Assembly (NCBI GenBank): GCA_019055375.1
Contig: JAHQIW010003758.1
Coordinates: 391,101-455,100, forward strand
Source of the DNA: Parelaphostrongylus tenuis
Taxonomy: Eukaryota; Nematoda; Chromadorea; Rhabditida; Metastrongylidae
Length of the DNA: 64,000 bases
Direction: 5' to 3'
Shown: one piece after another, positions 991 through 64,000 of the stretch
Numbering within the stretch: the stretch's first letter is position 1
Layout: the number at the start of each line of letters is the position of its first letter
Notes under the pieces: model-generated
What the model saw: the letters and a program-made list of their open reading frames with translations, nothing else
The model's database searches: none
Told to the model about the DNA's origin: nothing
Program-made: the position numbers and the translations under genes

Positions 991-1026
<36 letters not shown>

Positions 1027-20467: not shown

Positions 20468-20744
20468 TATGACTGAGGATATATTAGCAATACGCTTTCC
20501 CATGAACGACGCCAATACAGCGCCATGGTTAGGTAAGTCAACGTTCAAGTGCAAGAAATCTGGAAAAAACTTCCGTGCTACAATATAATCTAGTGAAGAG
20601 AATAATGACAATCAAACAAAATTCTTTTTTTCAAGTCCCGCCTGGTGCAATAGTTTTGTACATCACTCAACATCACTGAGAATACTGTCGCCTATAGATG
20701 ATATACCGCTAACTTGATGCTTCATTGGATCCTTTTAGAGCGGT

Positions 20745-38900: not shown

Positions 38901-41900
38901 TACATCGGTATTCTTGGGTGAATGGACTAGACCAGCTTTAAGGGGCATCCATAGAGAAAGAAAGAAAAATCTTCAAGTAGTGGCCAAAACGTAACAGAAA
39001 TACAAAGTTCCTCGTGGAGCATGCACATGAGAAAAATCTCGCAATGTAGGTAACCAAGTTTTCGCACGATATGTTATAACGAGTATGTATGATGTGCTAT
39101 GGAAAGAAGTCTAACGAGAGATTTAAAAACCAAACCCATTTGCCATGCCTGGCGTCGAGAAATCATCCATCTCATCATTCCAAACGATTCCGTAAGCATT
39201 TGATTCGACTGTGGCTCCAAACCTAGACACAAAAACTTCGTAGTATTTTGGTTACTTTTTCGTTCATTTTGATTTTTTTAATGATCTTCTCCATAATAAA
39301 CATAATTTTGATACCCGATGGCCAGTTTCTAATGTATTGCTCTAGTCACGACTCCGCTACTTGAGAACTTCTGATTTTATTAATCAAGTACTCAAATAAA
39401 GCAAGTCTGCCGAATCGTTGTCAGGCGTAAAAAAAAGAAGTAACTACCATTGATTTATTGTCGAAGTTGCGGAGACTCCATTACCATATTCATCAAGTAC
39501 TGAGATATGTGATGTCCCATAGTCTGGAACCTGTAATCCATGTCAAAATTCTCTAAAGCTATTTTTCATTTGCTTCATACTTAAGAAGAAACGATAATAA
39601 AGATAATAAAAAACGAAAATGGTATGAACGCTGGTTGATTTCTTTGAAATACGCCATGCATTCTACTTCACTAGGCATTTTAGAGGTGATTAATCAAATG
39701 TACGTCCTATTCAAAGACTTATGAGAGTCGACTTACCTATCATATCAGTTCAAATCTTTATCCTCTCAGTCATGTCTACTAGCGATATCGAATGAACTTG
39801 GGGCTTTGCTACTTGCGACCTGTCGCAGCAGAAAGCGATACAAATCTTATAGTCTCCTTAGGTGACTGTCTTGGTTATAAAAGGAGTGTACGACTCAAAT
39901 TTGGCAGATAAACTCATCTAACCATAAAAGTAAGGTTATCATCATAAAACCTAGCCGATGAAAATAGCGATTATTGATACGTGATAAACGAATTCATTAA
40001 TTTAATCTGAAGGATAGGCATTTTTAGTCAAAGTCTCCTACTTTTTCATTCGTGAATCTACCTATTTTCGCGATTGGATGCATTAATGATGCAAACGAAT
40101 GTCTGAACCATACCGATCATCACTTTATTTGATTTGCATCATACTTTTTTCAACTGTGTAGTTTCCAGTACTTCTAACTGCAATTAGTCCCCTAACATGC
40201 GTCGCATGTTGAAGATTGCTTTCTTCACGAACACTGTAAAATAGTGGTTGAAAACACCTCTCTTTGCCTTTAGAGGATAAACAGGCTGGGGTGGTCTGTA
40301 GAACGTTTGTTATTAATCGCAAGAGAGTGTTTGGTGTGAGGGTTATCAACCCCGTGTCGAGCATCACTAACCACACGGCCATCGGCCCCCTAAACCATAA
40401 TTGATGGAGAAATATTTAAGTTCTCACTTTTAACACTTGACAGAGTAGTTAGCGGTATTTATTAAAAACTAAGTCCTTCGTTTAGCAGATCTTTTGTTGA
40501 TCGCTTACACCGTTTTCTTGTGAGAGTCGGTATCAAACAATTCGCTGCACTAAAAATAATGCAATGTATTTAAATGCTAAAAGAGCAAATATGACTGAGG
40601 TGTAAGAGATTCCAATAGGGTAAGATTGTTAGAATGCAGGTTAGAGGTAATTTCCCGGAAAAGTTGACACGCTAATCGTGCAGCGCGGTGGTTAGGAGTG
40701 CATAGCAATACATGATAGTTGACTAAATTCCACCTCTCAGCCTCACCATGCCTTCCCTTCTTCCGGGGCCGACGATCAATCTATAGGGCAGATATGGATC
40801 AATCACCTCTTACAGTGCTTGATAAAGTCAAATGCATGATGCGTTCCTGACAGAATGATCAATGCTGACAGCTTTATTCCTATCCTAATACCTGTGACTG
40901 GGCATTTCCTCCATAGTAAGGCGCTGGCTGTGCTACGCTTCTCATACGTGTAAGTACCCACTTAGTGTACTCATTCGTCGTCAAATTCTTTGCTAGCGTA
41001 TAAGCAGACGGTACAAATGCTACATCACCAAGAAGTGTTCTGGAAGTGAGATTTTCTTATATTGTTTATGAAGGCAAAACATGTAGCAGATAATCAATTG
41101 GAATTCATTTATTTGACCGCCTCCTGCGGTGTTATGGTCTTAAAATATTCCCGATAATGTGGAGTGCTGTGCAAAAACGTTTGCGCCAGCGGGAATCGAA
41201 CGCAGATCTCATTGTTTCCGCGAGCGTATGCTAGTCGTTGCACCACCGACGCTCGTTTTGCACAGCACTCCTTTCACGCTACAACGCGTTATCTGTCAAC
41301 AGCCAACCGTCGACGGTCTGGCGGGGCAGCCGCTTCCAATGCAGCAGATAAATGAACTGAATGAATTCGTAGACGAAAAATTTTGAAAAAATAATTTAAA
41401 TTTTCCGCTGTATCTGGAATTGGACTTCATATTATGTGATCAAGAGAGTTCATACTATTCACAATCGGCCGGTTGGCTTAACGCACTAATCGCTGCCCCT
41501 TTAGCAAATAGTGCTGCTCGAAAAGAATCTTCGTTGCAAGGCATACACTCTGCTGCACAAAGTCATCTTTCTATGATGAGACATTGGAGGGACACATAGA
41601 AACGTCTTTCTAGTAAAAAAAAAATGCTAAGGTATCTTAAAAGTCAAAAATTGTCGGAAGTTGTCGACAAGGTGCCATCGCATGTAGTGAGCATCACTAT
41701 TCTTCGTAAACCATTCAATATTTTTCAATTCAAAAGCATTATGAAAACTTTTGGCCATTATGAGTCAGAGAATCTGAGAAACGGATGATTTTATTGTAAT
41801 ATTTGATTACAGAAGTGGGGAGTGATATTATACAAGACTATGTGGCCATTCATTTATTCGTGGCAATGAACGATGGTGAATTGTTGCTGTCATAAAAAGA

Positions 41901-44900
41901 AACAAAAGATATTCATAATTGACATATGACTGGATACAAAAAATAACACGTGGATGCCCAGTGACAGTTCAAAATACAATTTTTTCGCAAGATGCGGCTT
42001 TTCCCCTTCAAAAATTCGGGATTTTAGAGGAAGCGTCTTCGTTGCTTCCAGCTTCCAGCGATGAATAACGTTCGTAGTTGAGTATAAGTGGATGTACAGA
42101 ATTATTACCCAGAAACGACAAAACAAAGCCCTTCCACGTTTCTATAGCAGTCTCAACTCGTAAGGTTCACTATTAATAATAAATTTCTCCTAATTATCAG
42201 TGATGGCATCGTATTGCAAGGTGCAGTGTAAGTTTTGATGAACATGTCATTGTTTTATAAATGTTTTGACATATTTCAACGAAAAATACCTTTATTGAAG
42301 TTTCATCTATAAACTCCGCCTTTTAGTGATAACAGATTCACTTCTATTGATAAAAAGTTTGCATTCACTACGAAATAATAACGTGGTGAAGACTACGTGT
42401 TCGATGGCAAGGTCGATCGCGCCAACTGCCGCGCGAGCGACCAGCGCGACGCCGCTTCCTTTCAACGGCCGAAGTGAAAGAGTTAATTCAGTTTCGAGCA
42501 ACATCTTTTGAGGAGGCAATGCAATAGCCATGTTAAAGAATTATTTTTCATCTTTTACATAAAAAAGGAGCAATGACCCTCCAATGATTTATCACCAAAC
42601 CGTTTAACGACTGTTAGCACGTACTGGACTGCATTGAGTATCAACCTGCGGGGTCATCCAAGCCGACGAGATGGACATTTTTTTCGGTAAACTCTATTAC
42701 GAGTAAACACCAGCCAGAAAGTGCTACTGTTTTAAACTGGTCTTGGCCAGTCCCCATCTTCATAAAAAAGCCAATATCTGTGAATGAAAAACACCCTGGA
42801 ATGGATTGAGACACCAAAAGAAATCTTGTTTAGGATATGAAGTGATAAATAGTGTAGGAGCTTTTTGGTCCTTGTGATCACGGGAAATCCAAAAATAAAG
42901 TTTAGCGGCCACGAAAATGGATTAACTCTGCGAAAACGGCCACATTTCGTGGAATATACACAAGCTGTGCCTGGATCTTTTGCCGCTTAGAGGATTTCTA
43001 TCAGGCTTTTAGTCGTCATTCGATAGCTTAAAAAACGTAAATGTGATGCCGTACTTCTTCCAAAAGGCTTTTTTAGGAAGCTGTACTAGCAAAAAGAAGC
43101 TATGTTTCACTTTTGCCCTTCTTTGTTTGCACGGTTAGGGTCTGTGGGATTGCTTTTTACCAGCTTTCAGTGGCTACTTGATAGCTTCAGTTTCAGTGAT
43201 TTTGCAACTGAGATGATGTGAAACGAAATTTTTAGGCGTGATCTAAAAAACAGTCGATTGAAAAAAATCTACAAAGGATTTTCAAAAACCAAACTCGTTT
43301 TCAAAATGGACGAAATTTGAGTCATCTGATATCACTAAAGCTGTTGTGAAATTAGAGCACAGACGCCAAACATGCGAAAAATGTCCGCTAAACGCCATTT
43401 TTTTTTTTGGCTTCTAGCGTGCGCAAGAAAGGCCTTTTCAGAAATCAACCGTAGTTTCGAAATCGCTGATTCGAGCTATCAAATGGCTACTGAAAGTGTT
43501 TGATAAAAGAGAAATTGGTTCCTTTCCAAAGAGTTGATAGACTTAAAACGGGAACTTATCCCATTTCGTTTATAACATGCATTAGTAATTTAAAACTTTC
43601 AAAATACTCAAACGAGTTGTGCAAGCTTCGTAATATTGCTTAGTAGATGTGAAAGTTCGGAAAATGACGAAAGCATGACAAAATTGATGAGCAGAACACG
43701 ACGAACCGTTGAGCATAGCCAAACTTCATAGCTTCGATGAACTGGTGCATAACCTTCGGATCGCTATGAATATCAGCTTTATGTCCTTGTGGATATAGGC
43801 CTGAAACTTGTGAGTTATGGAAAGTGTAAACTGTTAGAAAAGTTATGACTGTCCACATTCATAAACTCTCTTTTAAATTTATTTCTTTAGCAACTTGATG
43901 TTTATACATTGCAACTTGCAAAATTTGACCACAACAGAAGTCAAAGTCTCAGGATTTTGGCATGGAACTCTCAGAATACTTTCAGTTGTGCCTCTTTTTG
44001 TGAGCCCCTTTCCTAATTTGTGAGTCGAACTTTAGAACGACTATCTTAAGAGAATAGTCTACCTTGTTTTCACTGATTACTAATTACGGAATAAAGAGGT
44101 ATTGATACACAATTGGTCTTTACACTAATATCATGATTTGATGACTACTGCATGTAAATTTTAAAGCATTTTCTTGATTAGCAGACGTTAGGTTGGTAGT
44201 AGTAGCAGTAGTAAAGAAGTCGCAGTACAATGGCTGACACTTTGGTGACCTCACCTTCTTCGGGAACCTGTGCATAAGTGGAAATTTGAATTTTTTTTTA
44301 GTCTTCAAATACAACGCACATCCAGGCCCCTGTAGAAGGTGAGGTAGCCGAAACGTTAGTCAGCGAACTATTACTACTAGTACTGCTATGAATTTCGCAA
44401 GTGCCAATGAAAAAAGTTTTTTAATTTTACACAAATCAATCATTAATGCCGAGGGTAATGAAAGGACGGCTTTTTGAACTATTACATACCTCGTAATTAC
44501 TATTTGAGCCAACATGTGATGTGGCCCGTAAAATGGGCTGACTTATAGAGCCCGCTATATGCGTTTCAACCTTGACGGTCTTATCAGTTGGGCGGTACAG
44601 TTCGTCTTTAGCCAGTTCTATCGGGAAGCTCAGTCCCCTATACTAAGAGTAGGCAACGCCGAACATCTCACACTGTCTGTCAAGTGGAATTATCACCGAG
44701 TAGACAGTGTTATGCACCCGATTGCTCTTGGATGGTATCCTTTTTTTGGCATTTACTTGTTTACAGCATATTATAGTAATATCAAAGTCATTAATTTGTA
44801 AAGGAAGTTTTCAATAGCCAATTCTGTGTTTTTCCCATCAATGTGTTCTGTGGTGCTTGTTTAGAGTTATTTGCAAAGCGACAAAAGGAGGGTCAGCGAC

Positions 44901-47900
44901 GCACCAGACATCACCGCGACAATGAGCTGAGTGACGGAGAATGACGACGGCGGTGGTCCTCCACACATAGCGAGATCACCACGGAAGCGGACGCGCTCCA
45001 TTCCTTGGTAAACCTTTGGTTGGTAGTTAGTCAAATCCTCTTTAGTGATCAAGCCACCTGAAATCCTCTAATTTCATCTGTTTCGATCGAAAAACGAAAA
45101 AAAAAACAAAACGAAAACTAACTAAATTTCGATTTTAACTTATCTTTACTGAAAGCATAAACTTCTTCACTGGAAATATCTTTTGGTAAGTATTTTTGTT
45201 TTTCTCTAAAACCCGATTCCGATTCCTTTAGAGGATTATTTAACCTCAAGGGATCGACGGAACCGAGGGAGGGTGCTACTGATGAGTCCCAATAGGACGA
45301 AATAGGCGCCTATATAGCACTAGACCTATGGCTCAAAATAAGTCATATCCTTATCAGATTAAATAATTTTGAGCGGGTCTGTAAAAAAGCAGTCGATAGC
45401 AGAAGTATAGTTCATTTTAAAAGCCGTAAGCTCGACTGCCGGTCACCACAAAGTCAGGTAAGACCATCATCCGACTTTGGGTGATTAGTTTTTACTCGGC
45501 GCCGATTCCTTTAGAGGATTATTTAACCTCAAGGGATCGACGGAACCGAGGGAGGGTGCTACTGATGAGTCCCAATAGGACGAAATAGGCGCCTATATAG
45601 CACTAGACCTATGGCTCAAAATAAGTCATATCCTTATCAGACTAAGAAGAAAATTTTTCCGTTATAGAACAACCATTTCTTGCTACTTAGGTCGTCTAGT
45701 ATGATAGTTAGATGATCATCAAGACAGCCATATCTCGTACCATATACCATGACACAGATATTATATAGCAATTTTGCTACATCTAATGGAAAGACTCCGT
45801 TTGTATAAGCGGATGATTGCTGGTGGACAACTGGCTTAGGTTCGAAATTGGAAATAATGTACCTCTTGAGCACTCCAAAATATTTCTTACTGATTGCTAA
45901 GGCTTCTGCTAGAAAGATAACTCAACGACTGTTGCGCTCAATTATTGACTTTGACTTTGTGTGCATAGTGACCCCAGTTACCCCGTTGACTATTCCAAGA
46001 TTAAACCCAAAGAAATCAACCTTTCTTGATTTTCAGGCTAAGTTTTCCTGGAATTGAACGATATCGCTTATCTAGGGATCCGTGTTACCACACATCTTTT
46101 AAAATTGGAACTGTTGGATTTATCCATACGTAAGCTTGGCCAAAAACAAACTAATTCAATTATCCAACGATGCTGAGTGATATGCAAAATATTCCACCTC
46201 AGGCAAGAGTTGAACCTGCGTTTCACGCTTAGTGCGGAAGTGTGATGAACTATTTTGCAACAAAAAACAATCGCTGGCTTCTTTTTGATCACTTTTTTTC
46301 ATTGGTAAGAACTACCAAACAAAACAACGCAATATTGCAGAAATAGTTTTCAAAAACCTTTGTAATGACTTTGGTGATAAGTTAAGAACTTACCTTCTTC
46401 CGCCATCTCCTTGGCAATTGTGTCAGCCATTTTGCCGCGATAGAACAGTTCCACTGGATCTTGCGAATCTGCAATCATCTCCAGTGTTTTGGCTAGTTTC
46501 AATCGAGGTAGAAGATCTCCAGCCTTGTAGGTTGAGTTTGTAAGTGGATTGATCCATGACCTAATTATTAAAGGGATCGAAAAATTCGTACTATGATAAG
46601 AATCGCTTACAGTAATAGATGAGAAAATTTTTGTTTTTACACTTTATAACACCCACCTCATACTGGGATAATGACGGAAGTGAGCTTCCTTCACTTTCAT
46701 CACATAATCGAGATAAACCGACACTGGAACTCCTTTCCGACAAAGCTGGATTGACGGTCGAATAAGATCCTTCCAAGAAGCACGACCTAAAAAGTTTTTA
46801 GAGAGCGAAACAGATCAGTTCACCAGATGACTTACGGTGGAGACTTACAAACCTTAACCGTAGCCAAATCGCAAGTAGAAAAATTAAGAAGTCTTGTTTT
46901 AAAAGTGCGCAGTTAAACACAAAACAAGCTAGAGGTTGATCTATTTAACCTACTATATATATCCCATTACATCAGTGCTTCCACTTAGTTTTTTTACCTG
47001 AAGCAATTAAGGTGAAAAGCTTCTCGCCAAAAGTAGCGATGCCCTGGTATTTGGGTATGCTCAGATAAGAACTCCATAATGAATAATAGGATAACAGGTC
47101 TATCTGATCACACTGATATATTTATAGCCCTCAAATCAGCCGCGGGTTGTCCACTTCACTCAGTCTTTGACATCATTAACTTAGAAAATATTTACCAGAG
47201 CCGAACTGTGTGAATGCGTGCCAATACCCAGCCAACTCTCCAGGTGTAGCAACTGCTCTGAACCCTAAAATGTCTTTAATTTTTGTCATCTCATGCATTG
47301 TCAGTGTAATCTCTCAGATCATTCTCTTAACACTTTTGACGTAATTAATTTTCATTTCATCAATTTTAGGCCAATATGGACCGAAACTGCCGGTTTGGTT
47401 CGCATCCATAAGAAAAAACGTAAGAGAAAAACATAAAGAGCTATCGATGGATTTATAAAAAGAATTTCTAGCATTTTTTTGACTGAACGCCATGATTTCA
47501 GTGCATACGAGGCAAACAACAGAGTTATTTTCGAGAGTTCTTTCTTGTGAAGGCTACCACTTTGAGTAGCAAACAGTGAAGCGAAATTTCGTACAATCGT
47601 TGTTCTGCGGGCTGCGCTGAAATCTATACATTTTTTGTGCTGACTTTTTGGGAATTAGGAAAAAATTAGGACAAAAGTAACATTACGAGAAACATATTTA
47701 TACATCTGTGTTGAAACTGGTGATAGTGGAACGGTTCGTGTACATGACCCCGATAGAGTAAAATGTGGGTCCTAGCTGACGCAGAAGTTTTGCACATCAC
47801 TTTACATCACTGGGTATATTATAACGCCTTAGCACTACCAAAGTCGATTAATTGAGAAGAATTTTATCTGTACTTTATTGACAGGGTGGAACATTGCTTA

Positions 47901-50900
47901 TAAGCGAGTCGTATCGTCCCATGGTACACGTGAAAAATTACTGCCTGCTGTCTGAGAACGATTACTTTTAAGAACCGATCGATATCATTTTTATTTTCTA
48001 TGTCCCCTACACATCATTTGTGCAAATTCCAGAGCTTTTGACATTTCACAACCCATTTCGGCTTCAGCTTGGAAATTTTGTCCTCTCAATGAATGTAGCA
48101 AAATATTATTCGAGGGCACAAATCGGTTAACGGGAACAAGTAAATATTCGGCTCCATTTTTTGGACAGGAACTTTTTATGCGAAAGTTGGCAATCATTCG
48201 ATAGCTTAAATCTCTGGGTAAAGCAATATGTGTGCAGATTTTCAAAAATGGATGTTTGCAACTTTTTTAAAGAGAGGGAAACTTTTGTGTTTCACACACG
48301 AATTTTTATTCGCAAGACAGAGCTCTTTCTTTAGACCATCAGAAATTTCAATAGGGTAAGATTTGAAGATCCCAATGACATGTTTATTTTTTGGAAACAC
48401 CTCTTCTCTGCAGTGCGGCAGGGAGAGGAAGATACATATGCGAGCACGTGATCTTTGGCTAATTCACGGGCTGAGAGGTTAGCAGGGAGACTTGCCGCGA
48501 TCACCAATCGGTGAGGCCTACGTGAAGTGCGATTTCTGTTATCTGTCCAGAAATTCTTATTACGCTTTGGGAGAAACTCCATATTAAACGTTTTATTCTG
48601 ATACTAAAAGATTTTTCTTACACGTGAAGTGCCTTTCTTGCTTCCAGCGAAGTAAAAGGCTAATTGTGCAGCTGATGTAAAGTATAATTTTATTTTGAAT
48701 TTGACACCGTTATAAAAGGGCGTTATAAAAAGTTGGCCCTAGGCCGCACTAGCCAGAATCTTAAGCTATTAGGATTACTAACGTTCCTGTGAAAAGTCCT
48801 TATTGAGCGAATAGGGTCGAATAGTGATTTGTTCTCCTATAATCAAATTGAACTTATTCGAGCTTTTAGGTTGATACAAAAGTAATCGCGGTTTATGCAT
48901 TGTTGAAATCTGCTGTTCGACATTAAAACACCTTCTTAAGCATATATTGTTTTGTTACACATCTTTTAATGCGCATTTCTCTTTTCATGTTTCGTTGTTG
49001 ATAGCGTAATACTTTCTGCCTATTTCCTGTATATTTCAAACTACACAGGATGTTGACATAAAGCAAATCCGAGCAATTGACTTGTTCAATGTTAAAAGTC
49101 GTTGTAAAACAGTGGAGACAACTCGCAATATCAGTAACGCATTCGATTGAGGAATTACTAACAAACGTTTATTGCAGAGTACTCAAGAAGTCTCGTTAAA
49201 AAAAGGGGAAAGCCTTGAAGATGATGAACATAGTGACCGGCTAAAATATGTTGACAACGATCATTTGCAGGCGAATGACCTATGCTGATCCTTTCAAACC
49301 TACACGAGATGCTGCAGAAAAGCTTAATGTCGTTAATCCTACATTCGTTCGCTATTTCAGCGTATTGCAAAAGTGATTCCCCTCCCAATGTTGAATTTGG
49401 CCTAGTAAAGGCGTTCACACGAGGACTGCAAGAGAGCACAGGGAAAGGGTTGAAAAGGCACGGAATTTCTTGATTGACCGCATCAATAACTACTCAGATA
49501 TATCCAAATAGATGAATATTATGGAATGAAATTGCTGCTGAAGTGTGCAATAGATTCCAACTTTTGTTGATTCGTTTTCTTTCTAACGAAGAAAAATCTC
49601 AAACTTTATCCTTACCCCCTCCGCTCACAATGCTTGTCGATTTTCAATGTGTTAACTACCAAACTCTCAAAAATTGCGTTGACATTGACTGAGTGCTGAT
49701 CACGCTATGAGAAATAAATTCAATTGCAAAAAAAGAGATTCAGTTTGCCAGTCCATAACATAATTTGAGTATGAAAATAATTTTTGAAAATCTTCGTGTC
49801 TAAATAAAATCTCAAAAGATACAGGTTATGCTTTCAATTGTTCTTATCAAATTTCCCGCACGTCACTTGTTTGTTGGGTATCCTAGAAGGTAGAACATAT
49901 TTTCAGTTATAGAATTTACCAAGTTTCGATCCGACGAAATCCTGATGGAACATATCCCGATGTGCAGCAGCAGGAGCGGACTCTCTCGCATCAATAGCAA
50001 TACATTTGCCACTTGTCCTGCAAAATTTTGGCGAGCTCGCAAAGGATATTGTTTGATTTTTGAGGGCTCATGAATTTCGTAGGCAGGATAGAGCACTACG
50101 GTTCTCTTTATGTCTTCGAGTGGCCCTGATCACGGCATCTAAGAATGGGAGTTTCATTGACGCCTCTTCAGTTGGCAGTTATTAGAGTTTATGAGGAAGA
50201 GAAAGCTTTCGTCAGTGCGATTTTGACTGATGAAGTGGCTTACCGGCAACGTATAGAGCCCAATACACGCGTTCCGGCCTTGGCAGCCTCGTCAGTCAGG
50301 CTGTACTCTTCGTTTAGCCAGTTCTCTTGGAAAAATTAACCCTTATATAGAGTTGACGACGACGAATATTTCACACGTGCCATTGAGTCAAAAAATCATT
50401 GAATGGCAGTGTTTAACACACGACTGCTCTTGGCTGGCATTGTTGAATATATCATGCCTTAAATTTCGAGTGTTTCAAGGACTACGCTCAAGTTTCAATA
50501 TGCCTGATAATCATTTTTAAGGATTGGCAAAGGACGAAGGTACTGCTCGACTGACGAGGCTGTCAAGGCCGAAGCACGTGTGTCTGGCTCTATAAGTTGC
50601 CTTATAACAGACCACATGCATCGCTTAAAATGATTATCACGTTTACCGCAAGTTGCACATAGTCCTAAGAAAACGCTCAAAGCGAAGGGTCATTTCAGAC
50701 ATGTCTAGTGTTATATTCTCATTCAGGAGGTAATTACGTTTTAGTTTTGTCGGAGCATGAGATCAAACAACGGCCGTTTATTCATTACAGAGTACCCCTG
50801 CCCAGTGCGCCACACTCCGCTCAACAAGCGAATGTGCCATATCACCGCTTGACTGCGAAAAGGTAGGCGGAAAAACAGAATTAATAGTGAGAGGCAAATA

Positions 50901-51712
50901 TCAAAGACTAGATGATAGTGCCCACCTGTTGTATATCGTCATAAGAAATCCACCTCCTAGTCCGCTTGACTGAGGATTTGTCACTCCCAGACAGAACATT
51001 GCAGCCACTGCAGCATCAATGGCATTTCCTCGACGTTTTAGAATATCACTAGAATAATAGCCTTCAATTTATACATTGTTTAGTATAAAGTATTTCTTTT
51101 TTAGAGCTGAATGAAGTGGATTATCACTAAGAGTTTATGTATAGAAAATAAAAGTTTCAGTTATTTTGTTGCCAAATGCACGTGGTGCAAAAATAGTTCT
51201 GAAAATAGTCTATCAAAGAATAACAGAATTTCCAGCACTCAGTGATTTAAGCGCTGTCTGACTGCCTACAGAGACGGCAGATTGCCGAAAGAGTATCTTT
51301 AAGAATGTTAGAAATGAGTATTTTAGTCTAGATCATCTGAAGAAATGCTCTAAGAGCACATAAAAATTTAGTATATAAATTTGAGTAGAACGCGGTTTAA
51401 ATACGATACTTTCTTTTGCGACAAGTTTGAATACCGCACCCTCCAATTTCAGAGCAGATCTGATGATCAGTTGTGATAGCAGCTTTCTTGAACTTCCCTT
51501 CGACACTTGCAGATGGTGATGGCCAGTCAAATGGCACACCATTTCTGATAAACTGAAAAATATTGAAGCTAATCGTAGTTAGATCTAGTGAATACCATGA
51601 ATAGAGGACGTCGCTCAGACCTACCGCTTCATTTGCAGGATAAGTGAAGAAAAACACCAGTGTGACAAGGATGAACATAACCAACAGCGCTGCGCTTAGA
51701 GTGAAGACGAAT
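35788..51712 (-). CDS. ggt: Gamma-glutamyltransferase GGT-A, complete 16-exon gene
   Basis: Membrane ectoenzyme that hydrolyses or transfers the gamma-glutamyl group of glutathione and its conjugates. Exons, read high to low: 51712-51625, 51552-51440, 51048-50926, 50017-49920, 47264-47196, 46786-46657, 46560-46394, 45057-44905, 43800-43707, 41039-40892, 39530-39448, 39222-39136, 37773-37674, 37015-36959, 36885-36772, 35943-35788. All have GT/AG borders and phases join without a stop. From the ATG at 51678 the product is 581 residues (human GGT1 569): signal anchor 3-13, substrate-binding Arg108 in IDARE, nucleophile Thr389 in DYGTSH, Asn409 in STIN, Glu428 and Asp431 in NDEMDD, Ser459-Ser460 in PMSSM, Gly482-Gly483 in GGSGGS, and C-terminus PSGY. 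These match human residues with an offset of 1, then 8, then 9. Oddity: Arg62 replaces the first Gly of the usual RGGN motif. Start and an upstream 5' exon are inferred; the family call is firm. Confidence 0.94.
35944..36771 (-). other. GGT-A intron 15
   Basis: Occupied largely by the family-3 SINE and its tandem tail copies, plus a B-box-like fragment GTGGGTTAAATTCTCGC at 36.65 kb. Confidence 0.7.
36060..36360 (-). mobile_element. tRNA-derived SINE, family 3, in GGT-A intron 15
   Basis: Minus strand copy with GAATCGAACCAGCGTTTCAT (B box complement) and GCTCTACCACTACACCACAG (A box complement). The word CATTTTTCGCA(C)TGTTATGA-like occurs at both ends. Two extra tandem copies of the tail (TTTTTGCTCACCACTC) follow at 36385-36460. 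Confidence 0.7.
37774..39135 (-). other. GGT-A intron 12
   Basis: Holds the unassigned open segment at 38.0-38.1 kb. Nothing else recognised. Confidence 0.6.
37994..38143 (-). CDS. Short open segment in GGT-A intron 12, unassigned
   Basis: ATG-to-stop frame of about 45 codons with [20 protein letters not shown] and [15 protein letters not shown]. It is not part of GGT: exons 12 and 13 join in frame without it. No family recognised. Confidence 0.2.
39448..39530 (-). CDS. ggt: GGT-A exon 11: autoprocessing site and catalytic Thr389
   Basis: Translates as [16 protein letters not shown] followed by [11 protein letters not shown]. In GGTs the proenzyme cleaves itself just before the Thr of the G-T motif, and that Thr becomes the N-terminal nucleophile of the small subunit. 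Cleavage here would give subunits of about 388 and 193 residues. Acceptor TTACAG, donor GTAGTT. Confidence 0.93.
40130..40395 (-). mobile_element. tRNA-derived SINE, family 1, in GGT-A intron 10
   Basis: Minus strand head GGGGGCCGATGGCCGTGTGG then TTAGTGATGCTCGACACGGG. Lies antisense-neutral within the intron, in the same strand sense as the gene. Confidence 0.6.
41040..43706 (-). other. GGT-A intron 9, longest intron
   Basis: Contains hairpin dimer 3, the inverted dispersed repeat at 42.0 kb, and a GC-rich patch at 42400-42490 (GGTCGATCGCGCCAACTGCC). The left edge of duplication unit 2 falls within it. Confidence 0.6.
41150..41275. mobile_element. Palindromic tRNA-SINE dimer, hairpin 3, partly deleted
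   Basis: GGAGTGCTGTGCAAAAACG at the left is mirrored only by CGTTTTGCACAGCACTCC at the right; the inner part of the right arm is missing. In GGT-A intron 9. Confidence 0.7.
44185..44395. repeat. Foldback with short microsatellite in GGT-A intron 8
   Basis: Counterpart of the 985-1200 element: GGTAGTAGTAGCAGTAGTAA, CACCTTCTTCGGGAACC, then GAGGTAGCCGAAACGTTAGT and TATTACTACTAGTACTGC. The microsatellite is much shorter than in unit 1. Confidence 0.6.
45273..45320 (+). ncRNA. Type I hammerhead ribozyme, copy 1
   Basis: Stem I GUGCUA (45273-45278) pairs with UAGCAC (45315-45320). Core CUGAUGA is 45279-45285. Stem II GUCC/GGAC (45286-45289, 45295-45298) closes a CAAUA loop. Core GAAA is 45299-45302. 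Stem III UAGG/CCUA (45303-45306, 45309-45312) is short with a minimal CG loop, and the terminal A-U pair is followed by A, giving cleavage site AUA at 45312-45314. All invariant core positions are present and predicted cleavage is after 45314. A short stem III in a type I fold is typical of retroelement hammerheads that work best as tandem or dimeric forms. Confidence 0.95.
45556..45603 (+). ncRNA. Type I hammerhead ribozyme, copy 2
   Basis: Base-for-base repeat of copy 1, displaced by 283 nt: stem I 45556-45561 with 45598-45603, CUGAUGA 45562-45568, stem II GUCC/GGAC, GAAA, short stem III, and AUA cleavage after 45597. Two intact ribozymes in tandem are what is needed to excise a unit-length RNA. 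Confidence 0.95.
47715..47832 (+). mobile_element. tRNA-derived SINE, family 4, fragment in GGT-A intron 4
   Basis: GGTGATAGTGGAACGGTTCG, then GTGGGTCCTAGCTGACGCAG and TTTTGCACATCACTTTACAT with the GGGTATATTATAACGCC end. Confidence 0.6.
48866..49480 (+). mobile_element. mariner 5' end: terminal inverted repeat plus N-terminal transposase relic
   Basis: TTAGGTTGATACAAAAGTAATCGCGGTTT-type mariner terminus begins at 48866. Downstream (49.06-49.37 kb) the broken translation [39 protein letters not shown] and LQKSLMSL follows the two helix-turn-helix motifs and the acidic linker of mariner transposases. No DDE domain and no right terminus found. Sits in intron 4 of GGT-A; no equivalent in GGT-B. 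Confidence 0.75.
50220..50670. repeat. Foldback repeat in GGT-A intron 3
   Basis: 50230-50340 and 50520-50640 are diverged inverted copies; both translate in mirrored frames to an IEP-x-TR-x-x-AL-x-ASSV signature. Single diverged relatives occur at about 44.54-44.74 kb and 27.40-27.50 kb. Probably a MITE family with no coding role. Confidence 0.5.
50926..51048 (-). CDS. ggt: GGT-A exon 3: glycine-rich [12 protein letters not shown] segment
   Basis: Encodes [18 protein letters not shown], then the Cys-Leu-Gly-Val-Thr-Asn-Pro-Gln stretch and [14 protein letters not shown], the hallmark N-terminal GGT block. The matching GGT-B exon is 6658-6536 and reads KRGGN. The two exons share long runs of identical bases, synonymous sites included. 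Confidence 0.93.
51625..51712 (-). CDS. ggt: GGT-A exon 1: signal-anchor exon with probable start Met
   Basis: Acceptor CTTCAG precedes 51712 and donor GTAGGT follows 51625. The ATG at 51678 opens [18 protein letters not shown], an 18-residue hydrophobic segment that fits the very short cytoplasmic tail plus transmembrane anchor of GGTs. Because an AG acceptor lies only 34 nt upstream of the ATG, this may be the trans-spliced first exon; a cis-spliced upstream 5' exon is the alternative. The GGT-B counterpart is 7327-7239, with Met at 7292. Confidence 0.75.
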
Positions 51713-52004
51713 CTGAAGTCAGTGTTATTGTTAAAAAAATATTTTCACAATGTAATACACGTCACAGCTGAATAATATTTCGCTATTTTTCCAGAAACAT
51801 AAGTAGCGACAAAGTCATACGCTCTAAACGATCCTAAAAGAGAGCAGTTATCCGGACGATATTGCAAAAAATACTGCAAAAGGAAAGATCTGAAAATTTT
51901 GTAGTTCGTTGATTTCAGCATTGATACAATTTTTTCTTCCCACTAACGCTTATAACTCTATTCAATTCTTTGTCAAGTTTTGGTCTAGAATCTGTCATTT
52001 ATCT

Positions 52005-53095
52005 GTTTTTTTTTCAGTTCTGCTTAAGTTTTAGAGCGATAGAAGTCAACGTATCGCGCTAGTTGAGTTGCACATGAAGGGGATGAAAGCGGCTGACATT
52101 GTTAAGTGACTGGTTCAAAAGCATCAAGTGTTTACACAACAGTGAAACGTTGTTAAAAGACTGAAGGGACTAAGGACCATCCTCGAAAAGGTCGGCCAAT
52201 CACCTTATCTACTCCACAAAACATTGCGAAGATTCAATGGCCAATTTCACGAAGTGCGGATTACTTGATGCGCAAAATGGCTCGTGATCAACTAGTAGGG
52301 CTTAAGAAATACTGTTGAAAATATGCTGAAGATGCACAGCTACAAAGTATCTCACGTCACAAGACACACTTTCCGCACAAAATTATGAAGGAAGAACGGC
52401 TTTCAAAATCTCGCCGAATTATTTGCCTAATCGTTGGGTGCTCGTCTAACAAAGATGCTTTTCACGAATGAGAAGAAATTCACTGCTAAACCACTCTACA
52501 ATAATCAGTACTGGCGTCAACTTTTTCATAGGGTTAGAAAAAGTCTGCCGTATCAAAAACCGTCAACCGCAGTTTTTTCTCCTATTTCCATGATGGTTTG
52601 GAACAAATTTCCGCCTCCGGTAAGACGCCGTTGACCTACATCAACCGATACGCCAAATCAACGCTGCCAACTATCACTAGCAAGTTTTACACGACCTCCT
52701 GAAGCTTTGGAGTACTCAGCGATTTGGCGCCGATTTACGCTCTAGCAAGACTGGGCTCTTGCGTATTCAACCCGCTCAAAGATTGCCATTTGTCAAGAGC
52801 TGTTCCCCGACCCGTTTAGAACAAGGACATATGGGCATTCAAAGACGCCAGATCTCAGTTCAGTGGATAAATTCGTGGTCCAAACAGAAGAAGAAAGTCA
52901 CGGGCACTCGCTACAGTACCGTAGACGCGTCCGAAACGGCTTTAACACTCTCTTGCGACGAAATTACGGTGGGAACGTGTGTAAGCATCGTTGGAAATTT
53001 TCACAAGCGACTTGGTAAATGAAAGGAGGCAATTTTAGAAGTTTGTTTTAAGATTTTTTGTTACAAGTGCTGATCTAGTAAACCTATTTATTCCT
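52005..53095 (+). pseudogene. maT/Tc1-mariner-like transposase relic, copy 2
   Basis: Same element in unit 2: MKAADIVK at 52.08 kb, STPQNIAKIQWP at 52.21 kb, MRKMARDQ, TNEKKFTAKPLYN at 52.45 kb, SMMVWNKFPP at 52.59 kb and a C-terminal RWERV segment near 52.97 kb. Frames are broken. It was present before the duplication because unit 1 holds it at the same place. Confidence 0.8.
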
Positions 53096-53344
53096 TGAAC
53101 TCAATAAACTTTATTGTTTATGCAGTAATTTTTCTGCAATTAAAAAATCTGGAAAATTATCAAAACTTTTACTCATGCTGTATATAAGGATATTAGACAA
53201 TCAAAATTTATTTTGCAGTCCATTCTTTCTGTTTATGTTCATGAAATATTCTTTTCGAAAACTGAGCTATCATATACCATTTCAAGGAAGAGTGTTGTTT
53301 CAAGGACATCGAGAGCAAAAAATTTAATTCAACAATTTTAAATA

Positions 53345-53563
53345 TTGAATCACACAGTTACATGCATTGGAGCATCAATGGAATATGCGGGCGGGAAGTA
53401 CCATGACTCTGCAGTTCAAGTTTGCTTCGGTAAATTCCGTCGTGAAGAATATGAATGGTGGTATGGAAGCGGGCACGCGTTTCTGTTTTTGGACGATTTA
53501 ATGAAAGCAAGTAAACGCATAACTGTCAGGAATTCCATAGAAGGGCTCAGTGTAAACACCTGA
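53345..53563 (+). CDS. Short ORF shared by the three duplicated segments, function unknown
   Basis: 72 codons, with SAVQVCFGKFRREEYEWWYG and KASKRITVRNSIEGLSVNT. A diverged version with a stop is at 8880-9062 in unit 1 and an indel-broken version at 62281-62485 in the inverted arm. Probably part of an old transposon. It lies between the maT and RTE relics. Confidence 0.3.
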   Translation: MNHTVTCIGASMEYAGGKYHDSAVQVCFGKFRREEYEWWYGSGHAFLFLDDLMKASKRITVRNSIEGLSVNT

Positions 53564-54723
53564 ACTATTTTTGGCATCTGAAAGAGATTTTGAAGTTGAC
53601 GAAGGTCGATCACCTAAAAAAATTGTTGTTATGAGGTGCCTCTTGGTGCTTCTCGTGCGCAGCTGAATTTCTTCTCTTCCGTATTGTGATACACGACTGA
53701 AAATAGATCTTCTAGGGGCAACAAGAAATATATTCCCTACGATGATAAGCGACGATTGGTAGGGGGATGGTCGACCTTGGAGGAAAACTAACGGCATTTT
53801 CTTATTCCTAAACTGCACTAATAAAAATAATAACAACTGTTTGGTGATCTGCTCCTATTGTAGTCCATCAAAGCTTTCTCAATTTAAGCACAAATACAAC
53901 GAAAGTACTTCTAGAATGTCGACGAAATGCACTGAGAAGAGCAGGACGGCGCTTACAATAGTAAACAAAAAGGGTCAATCAACAATAACGTGAATCTTCA
54001 CGACACATTGGCGACATTGCAAAAGTAGGAAGTGTTGAGCTACGAGACCTTCGTGAACGTCGAACAGTGAAACGGTGACTCAAAGGGTCTAATTCGCCAC
54101 GTCGAGGACGATTTTTGATTACCAAGTATATGTCGGTGTCAGTACGGCATTGTTATAAAGTTGAATATTATGAGTTAAACTAAGTTATTCAATGGTTCGG
54201 ACTTTCGTGATATTTGCAAATAGCCGTCCGGCTCATGTCATAGGTCTCCCAGTATCCAATGGCTCAAATTTGTGTGAATAGATCTTCTTATTTGAGGCTA
54301 ATAATGCAACGACAACAAGATCACGGTCATCTTAAAGTTCAGTTGCAAGAAATATGAACATTAAGATAGCCCGTAAATAGAGATTGTATACCTTACAAGT
54401 AGGAACAACAAAGGCAAGGTTTCTCTTGCGATAGCCCTCAATTAGTACGATAAAAAAGAGTGGTATCATTGATTGTCAACTGTGAGAATGTGGTTAAGAA
54501 CAATTTTGTGAAGGAATGCAGATGCGGTTTTTTCGAAATTATTCATCAATGAGGATTATAAATTGCAAATAGAGTATTTTGACAACGAACAAAATCTGCT
54601 GAGATACCTAGAGTAGTAAAACGTTCTCGTCATAAGCCAGAGACTGTAGGGTGCGATTTAGGTACGATTCGCACTCAGTGGTCTGAAGAACTTACACCAA
54701 AAATTTAATTTGTGATAGAATAG

Positions 54724-54975
54724 ACAGGGCCGCCGTGGCCGAGTGGTTGTGATGCTTGTCGCGGCGCTCATGGAGGCGAACTCCAAACCCAACTTTCTTT
54801 GGCTGTCAACAACAACACCCTATAAAAAGCCACAGCAAGGCTGATCACGTGACTGCAAGGGTACTCGCTCAACGAGCATTCTAGGACGTTCAAGAAGAAG
54901 CCCAAACAGCGTTTTGAATGCTCGAAGTACTAGCATTCGCAGAGTGAAAGAAAAACACTGTGAAGATAAATTAAG
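54724..54975 (+). mobile_element. tRNA-derived SINE, family 1
   Basis: Starts GGCCGCCGTGGCCGAGTGG (A box) with GATGCTTGTCGCGGCGCTCA, and the tail ends near GAGTGAAAGAAAAACACTGT. Best preserved copy of the family in the window. Confidence 0.8.
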
Positions 54976-55459
54976 GAATGTCTACAAATAGAATAGACAA
55001 AACATTGAGCGTGGAGCAGTAAAAAAGGAATATTCAAAGGGCATTGTTTGAAGATTTAGATTGTTCGTACTGAGGTAGAGAAAATTTATATAGTTCATAC
55101 CGATATTTTGGCGGCGTCGATTCTGCTGCTGAAGATGGCAGCATATTTTCGAAAACATGATATAATACATACTTCCCAGTGAAGTGCATAAGAGCCTGCT
55201 ATACTTCTTATCTCAGTTCCACGTGCATAAAAAAGTATTGATTGGAAAGTTTTATACCAAACTTTCCTTCCACAACCCATCTAGGACCTCGAATTTTTCA
55301 CTGGCCAGGAATCCCCCGATTCTAGTCTCTGAAGATCCACTTGCGACTGGAAGCATGAAAAAAAGATACAGATCCAGGAACTGCCAACATCACTGCTTTC
55401 CCTTACATCTGGTGGCTACCATCTGCGTATCGTTCTCTCAGGACATGTGACGTTATACT

Positions 55460-57050
55460 TTTAGGAAGTAAAAATCCCACATAAGTGGAGGACTTCGCAC
55501 GTCGACATCCTTTTCAAAATAAGCAGCAGAAAGGATTTATGCAATTGTCGCCTATATGCCTGTCAAGTGTTCTCTACAAGCTTTTTGCGAAGATCATTGT
55601 CTTGCGCATGTAAAGGCCTTGCACTAGCAACAGTCGGTTCAGCAAACAGTTTTGAAAAGGATTTTGTTCCATGAACAACATCCAAACCGTGTCAGGTCGT
55701 TGAAGTCTGTCGGAATAAGCGTGTGGCCTCTGTCCTAAACCTTTCACTATGAAAAAGCGAGTGACAGCTACGAAACAAATGCAATCCTGTCAGCGCTCGT
55801 CCTTCAAGGCGTGATGTATTCTATACACGAACATCAGCTGACTGCCATTGAAACTGCAGCACAAGAATACGGCTATGCTTTAGACCCTTCACCGTGCCTA
55901 CAGAAATTGGGATTCTGTAAGGCCGCAGAGACTATATCGTCAAAGCTATTCACTAGGCACTAAGATATATAACGAAGTGCTTACTAAGACGAAAAAGGCA
56001 TACTTTTTGACTGGAAATTTATCACTGAAGCAGAGACGATCTCCAATGAACCCAACGAAGTGAGAAAAAAAGACTAAGCTGCGCAAAAACAGGAAAAAAT
56101 TTATTTCATGACAAATCTATAGTGCAAAGGTAAACAAATTGAAGTGGATGGTTCTTTGAATGCGGAGACCACATCGTACATGTACTGCGGACGTTCAGTG
56201 ATCATGGAGAACAACATGAAGGAGGGACTAAGCAGAAGAACGAGAGCGTGGCCGCAGTTTCGCCTTTTATAAAACTTTCCGGCCAAGTAGTGAACCCCAA
56301 ACTTCGCGCTCACCTATTTGATTTAACAGTCCTCCGAGCGTTTTGTTATGAAACGGAGAAACGAGCTGATACTGCAACCACGTCAAGAAATCTGAGCAAT
56401 ATTCACACAGGAGCTTGAGCGATATCTTCTCATTTTAGCGGCGCTCATAACGTCTAGTCAGCTTGCGCAGCTCAGAGATCTCAAACCTTTGCCGCCTTCG
56501 TAATCCAGAAATACATCGCAGCGGAATAGAAGTGGATTATCTGCATAATAAAAAGAACATCTTAGAGATGAAGGAAAGGAACAGTGATGTAAACTCCAAA
56601 AGAATGCAGACACCTCTTCGAAGGCCATCCAAGAAGATGGGAAAACGTGTATAAGGCTGACGACAACCATATTCAAGCACAGATGGCAACTAGTTAGAAG
56701 CACGGAATTGGCCTCGCGTACATTGCCATGGGCGAAACAGACCACCACCACGGACGGCATTTATAAGAGAGCAAAATGTATAAAAACTATGCTGTGGCTC
56801 GCAATACCAGTGAAGACGCTTGTCTAGGTATCTGAGTAGTAAAGCAACGAGAAAGCCAATCCTAACTGAACTGGGAAAAGTTGCTCACAAAATTTAATTT
56901 TGCCAATTGAGTTTATGGCGCTATTACAAAGGGCCTGACGCAACACATGCTGTTCATCTACTCTACACACGTTTGCAAGATGTTCTCTCTTAAATCTGCT
57001 AAATCTTTCATATGCGGTTGTGATATTCACTTTATATCGGACACCCTAAC
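55460..57050 (+). pseudogene. RTE-type LINE relic, copy 2
   Basis: Equivalent of the unit 1 relic. Recognisable pieces are KIPHKWRTSHVDILF (55.49 kb), RLYACQVFSTSFLRRSLS, the YTRTSADCH strand, KRADTATTSRN (56.36 kb), HPRRWENVYKADDN (56.63 kb) and the 3' tail near 56.83 kb. No intact frame over 100 codons. Confidence 0.75.
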
Positions 57051-57647
57051 CTGATTTGTCGACCTTTACACTGGAATCTACCGAACTGATCAAACAAGAT
57101 TTCGGAACTTCATGAGAACTTTATTCCACTGCTATCGCGATCAAATGAGGACAATAAGTAATGTTATGGACTGATTGCCATTTTTAGAGGAAGTATGTGA
57201 TACCATACACTGCAATCCTCTATACAATCACACTAATAGACATTGCGGTGAAAATGTCAGAGCGTTAGTGCAAAGTTCTTTTTCGAATCATGACTTCAAA
57301 GAGAGTAAAGTCGGCTTTCTATTTCAAGAATACCAGGATAATATTTTTGAAGAGCTTGCAAATCACGTTTTGCCAGCTTTTGACCATCTGTGAAAAGCCT
57401 TTGATCACCCTTGCCAGCAGACTATTACCACTAATAAGTAATCTTTATTATGTTTCTCGACGGTGATTCAGCCAGTGAATACAAGGTTTCCGTAGAAAAT
57501 ACAATGATTATGAGTCAAATGTGGTCGCATTTTGATAGAAAAAACCAATTAGAGAATTGGAAATGTTCTCTTTTGAGAGAAATGCGAGAACCGGCACGAT
57601 AATTGTAGAATTAAAAACTAATAAAGGCAGCCTGTTATTACACTTCA

Positions 57648-58136
57648 AAAATGGTTGAGTCATTGTTATTTAGCAATGCTGTCGAGTACACAGTACGCTG
57701 ATTCGCTTATGGAGCTACCAGCAAAGACATTATAGTCGGATTAATGGTAATAATCTCATGAACGAATGCTGGACGCATACGGCACTGCTTGAGAGTCCAC
57801 AAATAACAAACTCCACCTTTCCTAAACATGACGGTCCTCAAGAGTAGAACCGGTTACAACGTTATCACCATAAACGCAATGTTTCCTCCGCTACAGATCC
57901 TGCTCGTTTCTGAATTGATTTATCGCGTCTCAAAGTCGAATAAAATGCAGAGCATTAATATTAAGTTTTATAAGGCATTCATAATGTCGGTGTTACCAAA
58001 ATATTCGTAGCAATCAGAATCAACACTAGATCAGAGTTAAGCTACGTCCGATAGACTCTATGAGTATTCTATAGCTAGAGCAGGCAGCTTCCCCTCACAT
58101 AGTATACGATAGACTATCATACACTTAGTATGGGGC
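57648..58136. other. Spacer at the centre of the inverted repeat
   Basis: 489 nt between the arms. The left part (to about 58010) continues the duplication unit and resembles 13.44-13.79 kb. The last ~125 nt (58011-58136) match nothing else I could see. No gene is recognised. Confidence 0.7.
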
Positions 58137-58739
58137 TGAAGTGTAATACAGGCTGCCTTTATTAGTTTTAATTCTACAATTATCGTGCCGGTTCTCGCAT
58201 TTCTCTCAAAAGAGAACATTTCCAATTCTCTAATTGGTTTTTCTATCAAAATGCGACCACATTTGACTCATAATCATTGTATTTTCTACGGAAACCTTGT
58301 ATTCACTGGCTGAATCACGTCGAGAACAATAATAAAGATTACTATTAGTGTAATAGTCTGCTGGCAAGAGGTGAGTCAAGGCTTTTCACAGATGGTCAAA
58401 AGCTGGCAAACTGTGATTTGCAAGCTCTTCAAAATATTATCCTGGTATTCTTGAAATAGAAAGCCGACTTTACTTCTCTTTGAAGTCATGATTCGAAAAA
58501 GAACCTTTCGCACTAACGCTCTGACATTTTCACCGCAATGTCTATTAGGTGTGTTGTATCGAGGAGAATTGCAGGTGTATGGTATCACATACTTCCTCTA
58601 AAAAATGGCAATCAGTCCATAACATTACTATGTCCTCATTGATCGCGATAGCAGTGCGAAATAAAGTTCTCATGAAGTTCCGAAATCTTGTTTGATCAGT
58701 TCGGTAGATTCCATGTCAAAGGTCGACAAATCAGTGTAG

Positions 58740-60330
58740 GGTGTCCGATATAAAGTGAATATCACAACCGCATATGAAAGATTTAGCAGATTTAAGAGAG
58801 AACATCTTGCAAAACGTGTGTAGAGTAGATGAACAGCATGTGTTGCGTCATGGCCCTTTGTAATAGCGCCATAAACTCAATTGGCCAAATTAAATTTTGT
58901 GAGCAACTTTTCCAGTTCAGTTAGGATTGCTTTCTCGTTGCTTTACTACTCAGATACCTTAGACGTCGTCTTCAACTGGTATTGCGAGCCACAGCATAGT
59001 TTTTATACATTTTGCTCCTCTTATAAATGCCGTCCCTGGTGGGTCTGTTTTCGCCCATGGCAATGTGTACGCGAGGGCCAATTCCGTGCTTCTAACTAGT
59101 TGCCATCTGTGCTTGATATGGTTGTCGTCAGCCTTATACACGTTTTCCCATCTTCTTGGATGGCCTTCGAAGAGGTGTCTGCATTCTTGGAGTTTATCAT
59201 CACTGTTCCTTTCCTTCATCTCTAAGATGTTCTTTTTATTATGCAGATAATCCACTTCTATTCCGCTTGCGATGTATTTCGGATTACGAAGGCGGCAAAG
59301 GGTTTGAGATCTCTGAGCTGCGCAAGCTGACTAGACGTTATGAGCGCCGCTAAAATGAGAAGATATCGCTCAAGCTCCTGTGTTGAATATTGCTCAGATT
59401 CTTGACGTGGTTTGCAGTATCAGCTCTGTTTCTCCGGTTTCATAACAAAACGCTCGGAGGACTGTTTAAATCAAATAGGTGAGCGCGAAGTTTTGGGGTT
59501 CACTACTTGGCCGGAAAGTTTTATAAAAGGCGAAACTGCGGCCACGCTCTCGTTCTTCTGCTTAGTCCCTCCTTCATGTTGTTCTCCATGATCACTGAAC
59601 GTCCGCAGTACATGTACGATGTGGTTCTCCGCATTCAAGAGAACCATCCACTTCAATTTGTTTACCTTTGCACTATAGATTTGTCATGAAAATAAATTTT
59701 TTCCTGTTTTTGCGCAGCTTTGTCTTTTTTTCTCACTTCGTTGGGTTCATTGGAGATCGTCTCTGCTTCAGTGATAAATTTCCAGTCAAAAAGTATGCCT
59801 TTTTCGTTCTTAGTAAGCACTTCGTTATATATCTTAGTGGCCTAGTGAATAGCTTTGACGATATATAGTCCCTCTGCGGCCTTACAGAATCCCAATTCTG
59901 TAGGCACGGTGAAGGGTCTAAAGCATAGCCGTATTCTTGTGCTGCCAGTTTCAATGGCAGTCAGCTGATGTTCGTGTATAGAATACATCACGCCTTGAAG
60001 GACGAGCGCTGGACAGGATTGCATTTGTTTTCGTAGCTGTCACTCGCTTTTTCATAGTGAAAGGTTAGGACAGAGGCACACACGCTTATTCCGACAGCTA
60101 CTTCAACGACCTGACACGGTTTTGGATGTTGTTTCATGGAACCAAAATCCTTTTTCAAAAACTGTTTGCTGAACCGACTGTTTGCTAAGTGCAGGCCTTT
60201 ACCATGCGCAAGACAATGATCTTCGCAAAAAGCTTGTAGAGAACACTTGACAGGCATATAGGCGACAATTGCATAAATCCTTTTCTGCTGCTTATTTTGA
60301 AAAGGATGTCGACGTGGCGAAGTCCTCCCA
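58740..60330 (-). pseudogene. RTE-type LINE relic, copy 3 (inverted arm)
   Basis: Mirror of copy 2; reads HPRRWENVYKADDN and STELALAYTLPWAKTDPPG on the minus strand. Frames differ from copy 2 because of small indels. Confidence 0.75.
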
Positions 60331-60849
60331 CTTATGTGGGATTTTTACTTCCTAAAAGTATAACGTCACATGTCCTGAGAGAACGATACGCAGATGGTAG
60401 CCACCAGATGTAAGGGAAGCAGTGATCGTTGGCAGTTCCTGGATCTGTATCTTTTTTTCATGCTTCCAGTCGCATAGTGGATCTTCAGAGACTAGAATCG
60501 GGGGATCCTGGCCAGTGAAAAATTCGAGGTCCTAGATGGGTTGTGGAAGGAAAGTTTGGTATAAAACTTTCCAATCAATACTTTTTTATGCACGTGGAAC
60601 TGAGATAAGAAGTATAGCAGGCTCTTATGCACTTCACTGGGAAGTATGTATTATATCAGTTTTCGAAAATATGCTGCCATCTTCAGCAGCAGAATCGACG
60701 CCGCAAATATCGGTATGAACTATATAAATTTTCTCTACCTCAGTAAGAACAATCTAAATCTTCAAACAATGCCCTTTGAATATTCCTTTTTTACTGCTCC
60801 ACGCTCACATGTTTTGTCTATTTCTATTTGTAGACATTCCTTAATTTAT

Positions 60850-61098
60850 CTTCACAGTGTTTTTCTTTTCACTCTGCGAATGCTAGTACTTCGAGCATTC
60901 AAAACGCTGTTTGGGCTTCTTCTGAACGTCCTAGAATGCTCGTTGAGCGAGTACCCTTGCAGTCACGTGATCAGCCTTGCTGTGGCTTTTATAGGGTGTT
61001 GTTGTTGACAGCCAAAGAAAGTTGGGTTTGGAGTTCGCCTCCATGAGCGCCGCGACAAGCATCACAACCACTCGGCCACGGCGGCCCTGTCTATTCTA
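60850..61098 (-). mobile_element. tRNA-derived SINE, family 1 (inverted arm)
   Basis: Mirror of the 54724 copy; head CCACTCGGCCACGGCGGCC on the plus strand. Confidence 0.8.
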
Positions 61099-63890: not shown

Positions 63891-64000
63891 CGATTCTAGA
63901 CCAAAACTTGACAAAGAATTGAATAGTATTATAAGCGTTAAGTGGGAAGAAAAAAATTGTATCAATGCTGAAATCAACGAACTACAAAATTTTCAGATCT

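Follow-up and report, generated by a model that had tools for sequence, protein, structure and literature searches.

Judging from its sequence, the element at 45219-45645 of the window (the whole stretch of 64,000 nt analysed, from the nematode Parelaphostrongylus tenuis, the deer brain worm) is a metazoan (non-LTR) retrozyme. Its RNA, a multimer that would be cut to 283-nt circles, is quite probably copied by the protein of a Penelope-like element (PLE) from both strands of one DNA break. The evidence consists of the anatomy of the element, its copy number, the end positions and inverted layout of its arrays, target duplications, locus-specific variants, and an end rule that is also found in PLEs; from these we infer the RNA cleavage, the circularity, and the responsible enzyme. 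The near/far layout of the inverted arrays, described below, is the new part of the finding.

The retrozyme unit and its host intron

Direct-repeat analysis of the window resolves the insertion into a 283-nt unit in 1.5 head-to-tail copies on the plus strand, comprising unit 1 (u1-u283, 45219-45501, 43.5% GC) and partial unit 2 (u1-u144, 45502-45645). The repeat 45219-45362 / 45502-45645 has a period of 283 and an identity of 143/144, with its sole mismatch (T at 45359, C at 45642) at the right border. The true right end is placed at 45641-45645 by the direct repeat and the empty-site comparison given below. It lies approximately 43-47 nt beyond the ribozyme cut, not at the cut, and this position is a clue to how the retrozyme moves.

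Type I hammerheads are located at 45273-45320 and 45556-45603 of the plus strand, identified by Rfam RF00163 and by a strict scan of both strands, in which they are the only two in the window. Each scores 29.5 bits (E 6.5e-5) against RF00163, below the curated cut-off of 34, so that neither appears in a default Rfam scan. Stem I is GUGCUA/UAGCAC, stem II is GUCC/GGAC, and the cleavage site is AUA. Stem III is short, with a palindromic loop region. The predicted cuts follow A45314 (u96) and A45597 and would delimit a monomer or circle of 283 nt (45315-45597, plus strand). The predicted fold of this circle has an energy of -83.6 kcal/mol versus -62.3 for shuffles (sd 4.9, n=200). With tertiary contacts left out, the energetic penalty for imposing the active hammerhead fold is 3.0 kcal/mol for the circle and 9.8-12.8 kcal/mol for the 1.5-unit transcript. 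As for protein coding, the unit holds one 62-residue frame with no Pfam match, and no longer plus-strand frame is listed. It codes neither reverse transcriptase nor endonuclease and is thus not itself a PLE.

The insertion lies in an intron of a GGT gene encoded by the minus strand. The minus-strand frames match PF01019 in order, four of the six at or above the Pfam cut-off and two (43643-43858 and 47179-47313) below it. The best database match is the P. tenuis protein P0001, the exons of which map to the minus strand here, several of them at 100%. The exon 3' of the intron (44903-45058, minus strand) is 100% identical to P0001 residues 252-303, and the frame holding the exon 5' of the intron (46353-46643, minus strand) covers PF01019 positions 144-198. 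Since the gene is on the minus strand and the hammerheads are on the plus strand, the ribozyme is antisense to GGT.

A paralogous GGT intron in the same window (1420-2498) lacks the retrozyme and provides an empty site at about 1888-1898, in a comparison with a diverged duplicate. The left flanks agree to 45207/1888 and the right flanks from 45645/1898. An 11-nt filler (45208-45218, plus strand), including an extra CCGATT, occupies the left border, and no target duplication is visible at the window copy against this empty paralogous site. The empty site is supplied by a diverged tandem duplication, 158-11012 / 43400-55874 (71-88% by block), which holds the second GGT-like gene. Two other repeats in the window should be noted. 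An inverted repeat of nearly 6 kb (51886-57647 / 58137-64000; 96% identical, 188 gaps) reaches the contig end and is probably an assembly palindrome. A dispersed repeat with inverted parts is found at 14717-14954, 20234-20469, and 41102-41246, the first overlapping a tRNA-like Rfam match at 14853-14924.

The original prediction of a nematode host and a GGT intron is borne out by the P0001 exons and the PF01019 frames, with the minus strand as the gene strand. The period and identity of the repeat agree with its 283-nt unit in 1.5 tandem copies. Its full type I hammerhead in each unit is recovered by RF00163 and the strict scan, and its cuts after 45314 and 45597, bounding 283 nt, coincide with the predicted sites of both hammerheads. 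Its span of 45219-45641 is correct on the left, and the right end has to be widened to 45641-45645. The statement that a transcript across the locus would release a circle does not stand as made: it would hold only for the plus strand, because the GGT pre-mRNA reads the other strand, which is free of hammerheads in the strict scan.

Genome copies and the ends of their arrays

The P. tenuis assembly searched comprises 481.5 Mb in 5105 contigs and differs from the published genome of 491 Mb in 7285 scaffolds (PMC10940269). The exact 42-nt hammerhead core occurs 1167 times, whereas the reversed control pattern occurs 0 times, so that the hammerheads are more than chance would give; this count supports the retrozyme identity first proposed. 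A search with an RNA covariance model does recover further copies. RF00163 gives at least 31 matches in the genome, 20 of them over the cut-off (best 74 of 119,811 candidates scored), and no match in any of 14 control genomes. Exact-pattern scans of collections of viral contigs and genome contigs give no match, as is expected for a worm element.

A DNA search with the retrozyme yields at least 192 pieces (best 40 of 2435 candidates scored). All 40 regions read from this search (39 and the window) were taken. On contigs C1308 (L051/L052) and C4390 (L048/L049), the same retrozyme locus appears twice, mirrored, with flanks 97-100% identical, which represents palindromic assembly. L049 and L052 were dropped because they are the mirror images of the other two loci, leaving 38 distinct copies, which are the best-scoring among the matches and not a random sample. 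The copies are dispersed single-insertion loci with unrelated flanks, and hammerheads are strictly intact in 134 of the 153 ribozyme-like stretches.

Other hammerhead repeats are also observed. The sequences at six loci (L001-L004, L007, and L008) are related to the retrozyme but diverged from it (about 73-85%). Their stem III shows compensated changes, as does stem I of L008, and inverted parts are also present in L002, L003, L004, and L007. Another hammerhead repeat family (L060:2048-2508, L046:307-413, and L065:20-136) has a very weak stem III around ACGU, and a diverged relative is located within the neighbouring GGT intron, at 44487-44674. A third hammerhead type, with stem I GGGUCA/UGACCC, is present in both arms of a short inverted repeat at L054:940-1260.

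Among the 38 distinct copies, 25 are inverted arrays, with the minus arm first, the plus arm second, and the RNA 3' sides facing outward, and 13 are head-to-tail only. The arms are unequal in length, the longest being 1990 nt (seven units), and their junctions lie at varied positions; the inner ends are scattered, whereas the outer ends are in fixed phase. In 22 of the 25 inverted copies, one outer end lies at u134-152 (near) and the other at u186-206 (far); for L065, which has a third short arm, the ends of the first two arms were used. When these ends are paired at random, 22 near/far combinations are reached in 0.015% of trials. The exceptions are L048, L062, and L064, with both ends at u120-140, and none of the 25 has two far ends. 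The head-to-tail copies have a near start in 12 of 13 cases, the window copy included, and a far start in one (L056). All 63 outer starts fall in u115-160 or u180-210, zones that make up 27% of the unit and the bounds of which were chosen after inspection of the ends. A free 5' end at the ribozyme cut (u96/97) is found in 0/13 head-to-tail copies, these ends being scattered, and arrays ending at the ribozyme cut were rejected on this ground.

In a check that depends less on selection, the first 100 core positions listed represent 58 loci. Cores of opposite strand lie within 1 kb of each other at 20 of these loci, without exception in the minus-then-plus order.

The copy ends and the predicted fold together suggest a near start zone of reverse transcription at 45351-45370 (u133-u152) and a far start zone at 45404-45424 (u186-u206), both on the plus strand. 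The near zone is largely within the loop region of a predicted hairpin, a region that holds a small helix, and the far zone is within the loop of a second predicted hairpin. We have seen no description of inverted arrays with the near/far rule, and the word "inverted" is absent from the available text of PMC7229834.

Target duplications are indicated by words of at least 8 nt common to both borders at 34 of 38 loci, versus 3.3% of 2000 mismatched border pairs. By reading of the border output, the common word abuts both borders at 28 of the 38 loci and is mostly 10-15 nt long. No common word is found at L041, L058, L071, or the window copy, and L043 sits in an AAT repeat.

The units of one locus diverge by a median of 0.7%, whether the 190 pairs from the same arm or the 115 pairs from different arms are taken, and those of different loci by 2.2% (10,605 pairs). 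Rare variants were counted with one of the 176 units excluded (<90% identical). Among the 123 variants covered by at least two units, 11 are fixed in all units of the locus and 103 are singletons. Four of the 11 are fixed in both arms (L051 u232, L061 u23, L062 u203, and L077 u246), and at sites covered in both arms, 8 of 79 are present in both. Most of the variants not common to both arms are singletons, which we read as later changes or as copying or sequencing errors. The variation between units fits a single template per insertion, as in rolling copying of one circle. We infer the circularity rather than observe it, because fixed variants could also arise when the template is transcribed from an array that is uniform beforehand.

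Penelope-like elements of P. tenuis

The P. tenuis genome is rich in PLEs that carry RVT_1 and GIY-YIG domains, a GIY-YIG search giving at least 150 matches (best 150 of 1723 candidates scored). In the copy on contig C87, a frame of 902 residues matches both RVT_1 (6e-11) and GIY-YIG (1.4e-7), and a direct repeat resembles a pseudo-LTR. A candidate short hammerhead core of the type reported for PLEs, with a short stem I, was read by eye in this copy, with the cut placed after position 788; Rfam reports no hammerhead in it. The 3' regions of 31 PLE copies were compared, and the core is readable in 30 of them (not L099); the automatic end of L105 is only the point where matching to sister copies stops. 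The first two subfamilies account for 27 of these 30 copies; their ends lie at +55-66 past the putative cut in 13 cases and at +100-124 in 12, and two shorter ones lie at +33 and +41.

Among the GIY-YIG matches listed, PLE pairs within 5 kb are minus-then-plus in 20 cases and plus-then-minus in 0, though some of these pairs may be on palindromic contigs. A near end and a far end are joined in all seven inverted pairs examined (+117/+55, +55/+120, +103/+66, +62/+109, +63/+105, +103/+66, and, in the third subfamily, +117/+178). Their common border words, taken as target duplications, are, in the same order, 12, 8, 12, 13, 12, 12, and 12 nt long, and a word of at least 8 nt is present in 8 of 268 mismatched PLE borders. 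The position of the seventh pair, on C4986, should be noted: the automatic ends are +116/+117, and further reading gives +117/+178 with the far end placed via the flank word common to the partner, so that end and duplication are not independent. Inverted parts and a 34-bp extension are known from Penelope copies of Drosophila, and the end rule may thus be partly known for PLEs.

The retrozyme start zones are two adjacent internal zones, as in the PLEs. The start regions have no sequence likeness, shuffles being as good in 949 and 933 of 1000 cases for subfamily 1 and in 476 of 1000 for subfamily 3, and homology of these regions was rejected. Two 7-nt words common to both (AGAAGTA and CTTATCA) are post hoc and were not counted as evidence. 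Unlike PLEs, the retrozyme codes no enzyme, and it has no detectable sequence in common with the parts of the P. tenuis PLEs examined.

In 2020, PLEs were named a strong candidate for retrozyme mobilisation on the basis of co-occurrence, tandem copies, and shared hammerheads, according to the available text of PMC7229834. The purified Anolis PLE (PAc) has two adjacent internal sites at which it begins reverse transcription, and it both cuts the two DNA strands and extends them; the "tail" of genomic PLE copies corresponds to the stretch between the two start sites (PMC11167929). PAc and the P. tenuis PLEs agree in their domains, and the P. tenuis retrozyme shares with PAc the two adjacent internal starts past a hammerhead and the tandem copies (PMC11167929).

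Modes of spread and relation to known elements

Several other origins of the arrays have to be weighed. That the retrozyme is moved by a LINE-type enzyme, with inversions arising by L1-like twin priming, is unlikely. Twin priming yields inversions with short junction homologies such as are seen at some arm junctions, and among the repeats reported for the P. tenuis genome, LINEs form the largest class (PMC10940269). Against this stands the confinement of all outer starts to two fixed internal zones (with bounds set post hoc), mirrored by PLEs of the same genome. Spread at the DNA level, as a satellite by unequal exchange or as a DNA transposon of the foldback kind, which has inverted arms and duplicates its target, would account for tandem and inverted units, and DNA transposons also make target duplications. 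The dispersed single insertions with unrelated flanks, the unequal arms meeting at varied positions, the fixed phase of the outer ends beside scattered inner ends, and the high proportion of intact hammerheads (134/153) make such spread very unlikely.

It is more improbable still that the inverted arrays are artefacts of assembly or sequencing. Palindromes do occur in the assembly, at 51886-64000 of the window and on C1308 and C4390. However, the left flank of an array has no match in its right flank at E 1e-8, unlike what a palindromic artefact would show; most borders have a duplication in common; and every locus with cores on both strands among the first 100 cores listed (20/20) is minus-then-plus, where an artefact would give both orders. 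Assembly artefacts were rejected in view of the differing flanks and the target duplications. A ribozyme serving the host gene, for example in processing GGT transcripts, is scarcely credible. Such a role is suggested by the location in a GGT intron, but the hammerheads are antisense to GGT, the paralogous intron has no element, and this is one among more than 1000 dispersed cores; a GGT-serving ribozyme was rejected on the antisense orientation and the paralogous intron.

In the favored reading, copying of retrozyme RNA by a PLE protein, a multimeric transcript would be cut by its hammerheads into 283-nt monomers, and a host ligase would close these into circles, both steps as expected from the family. 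A PLE protein would take up the RNA and cut both target strands about 12 bp apart. Both DNA 3' ends would then prime inside the RNA, one in the near zone approximately 38-56 nt and the other in the far zone approximately 90-110 nt past the ribozyme cut. Copying would proceed round the circle, often more than once, until the two cDNAs meet, leaving an inverted array whose 3' sides both face out. A product from one strand alone, mostly from the near zone, would give a head-to-tail copy, as in the window. The copies carry the two-site, two-strand signature of PLEs without coding an enzyme. The original prediction that the element depends on the machinery of another is supported by the lack of a coded protein and the PLEs with RVT_1 and GIY-YIG in the genome. 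Some observations speak against the PLE mechanism: the start regions show no likeness, the near/far rule fails in three of the 25 inverted copies, rare variants are in both arms in only 8 of 79 cases, no target duplication can be seen at the window copy, and Rfam reports no hammerhead in the PLE. The Anolis PLE also shows no start-site difference between strands (PMC11167929).

The P. tenuis element resembles the metazoan non-LTR retrozymes, as described in the available text of PMC7229834, in type I hammerheads, short tandem repeats of about 170-400 nt, GC content below 50%, the lack of coding sequence, and target duplications of more than 4 bp; it differs from them in host, sequence, and the inverted near/far arrays. 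Plant LTR retrozymes, in the available text of PMC4918200, are likewise non-autonomous and hammerhead-bearing, with a circular RNA that the element here would share, but have type III hammerheads, LTRs, a length of about 700 nt, and 4-bp duplications. The Schistosoma hammerhead repeats and W-elements (PMC8490949, available text) are also satellite-like and hammerhead-bearing in a parasitic worm; their host is a flatworm, and they are likened by description, not by sequence. Among the titles and abstract openings covered, no report of a nematode retrozyme was found, which is a weak negative. The word stem "nematod" is absent from PMC7761336 and from the available texts of PMC7229834 and PMC4918200, and the words "hammerhead", "ribozyme", and "Penelope" are absent from the P. 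tenuis genome paper (PMC10940269).

The enzyme that moves animal retrozymes had been an open question, and the end rule adds positive genomic evidence for PLEs. It is also a cheap test applicable to any other genome. For PLE integration itself, the rule suggests that both strands are primed in one event, at two different RNA sites. We lean toward the view that the retrozyme is to the PLE as a SINE is to a LINE, with a pair of PLE enzymes on one circle, each primed by its own strand of a single DNA break, constrained to separate loops, and copying round the circle until they meet. If this is true, paired enzymes on one circle would fix the one-near-one-far rule in retrozymes and PLEs alike, and each insertion would be a readable record of one copying event.
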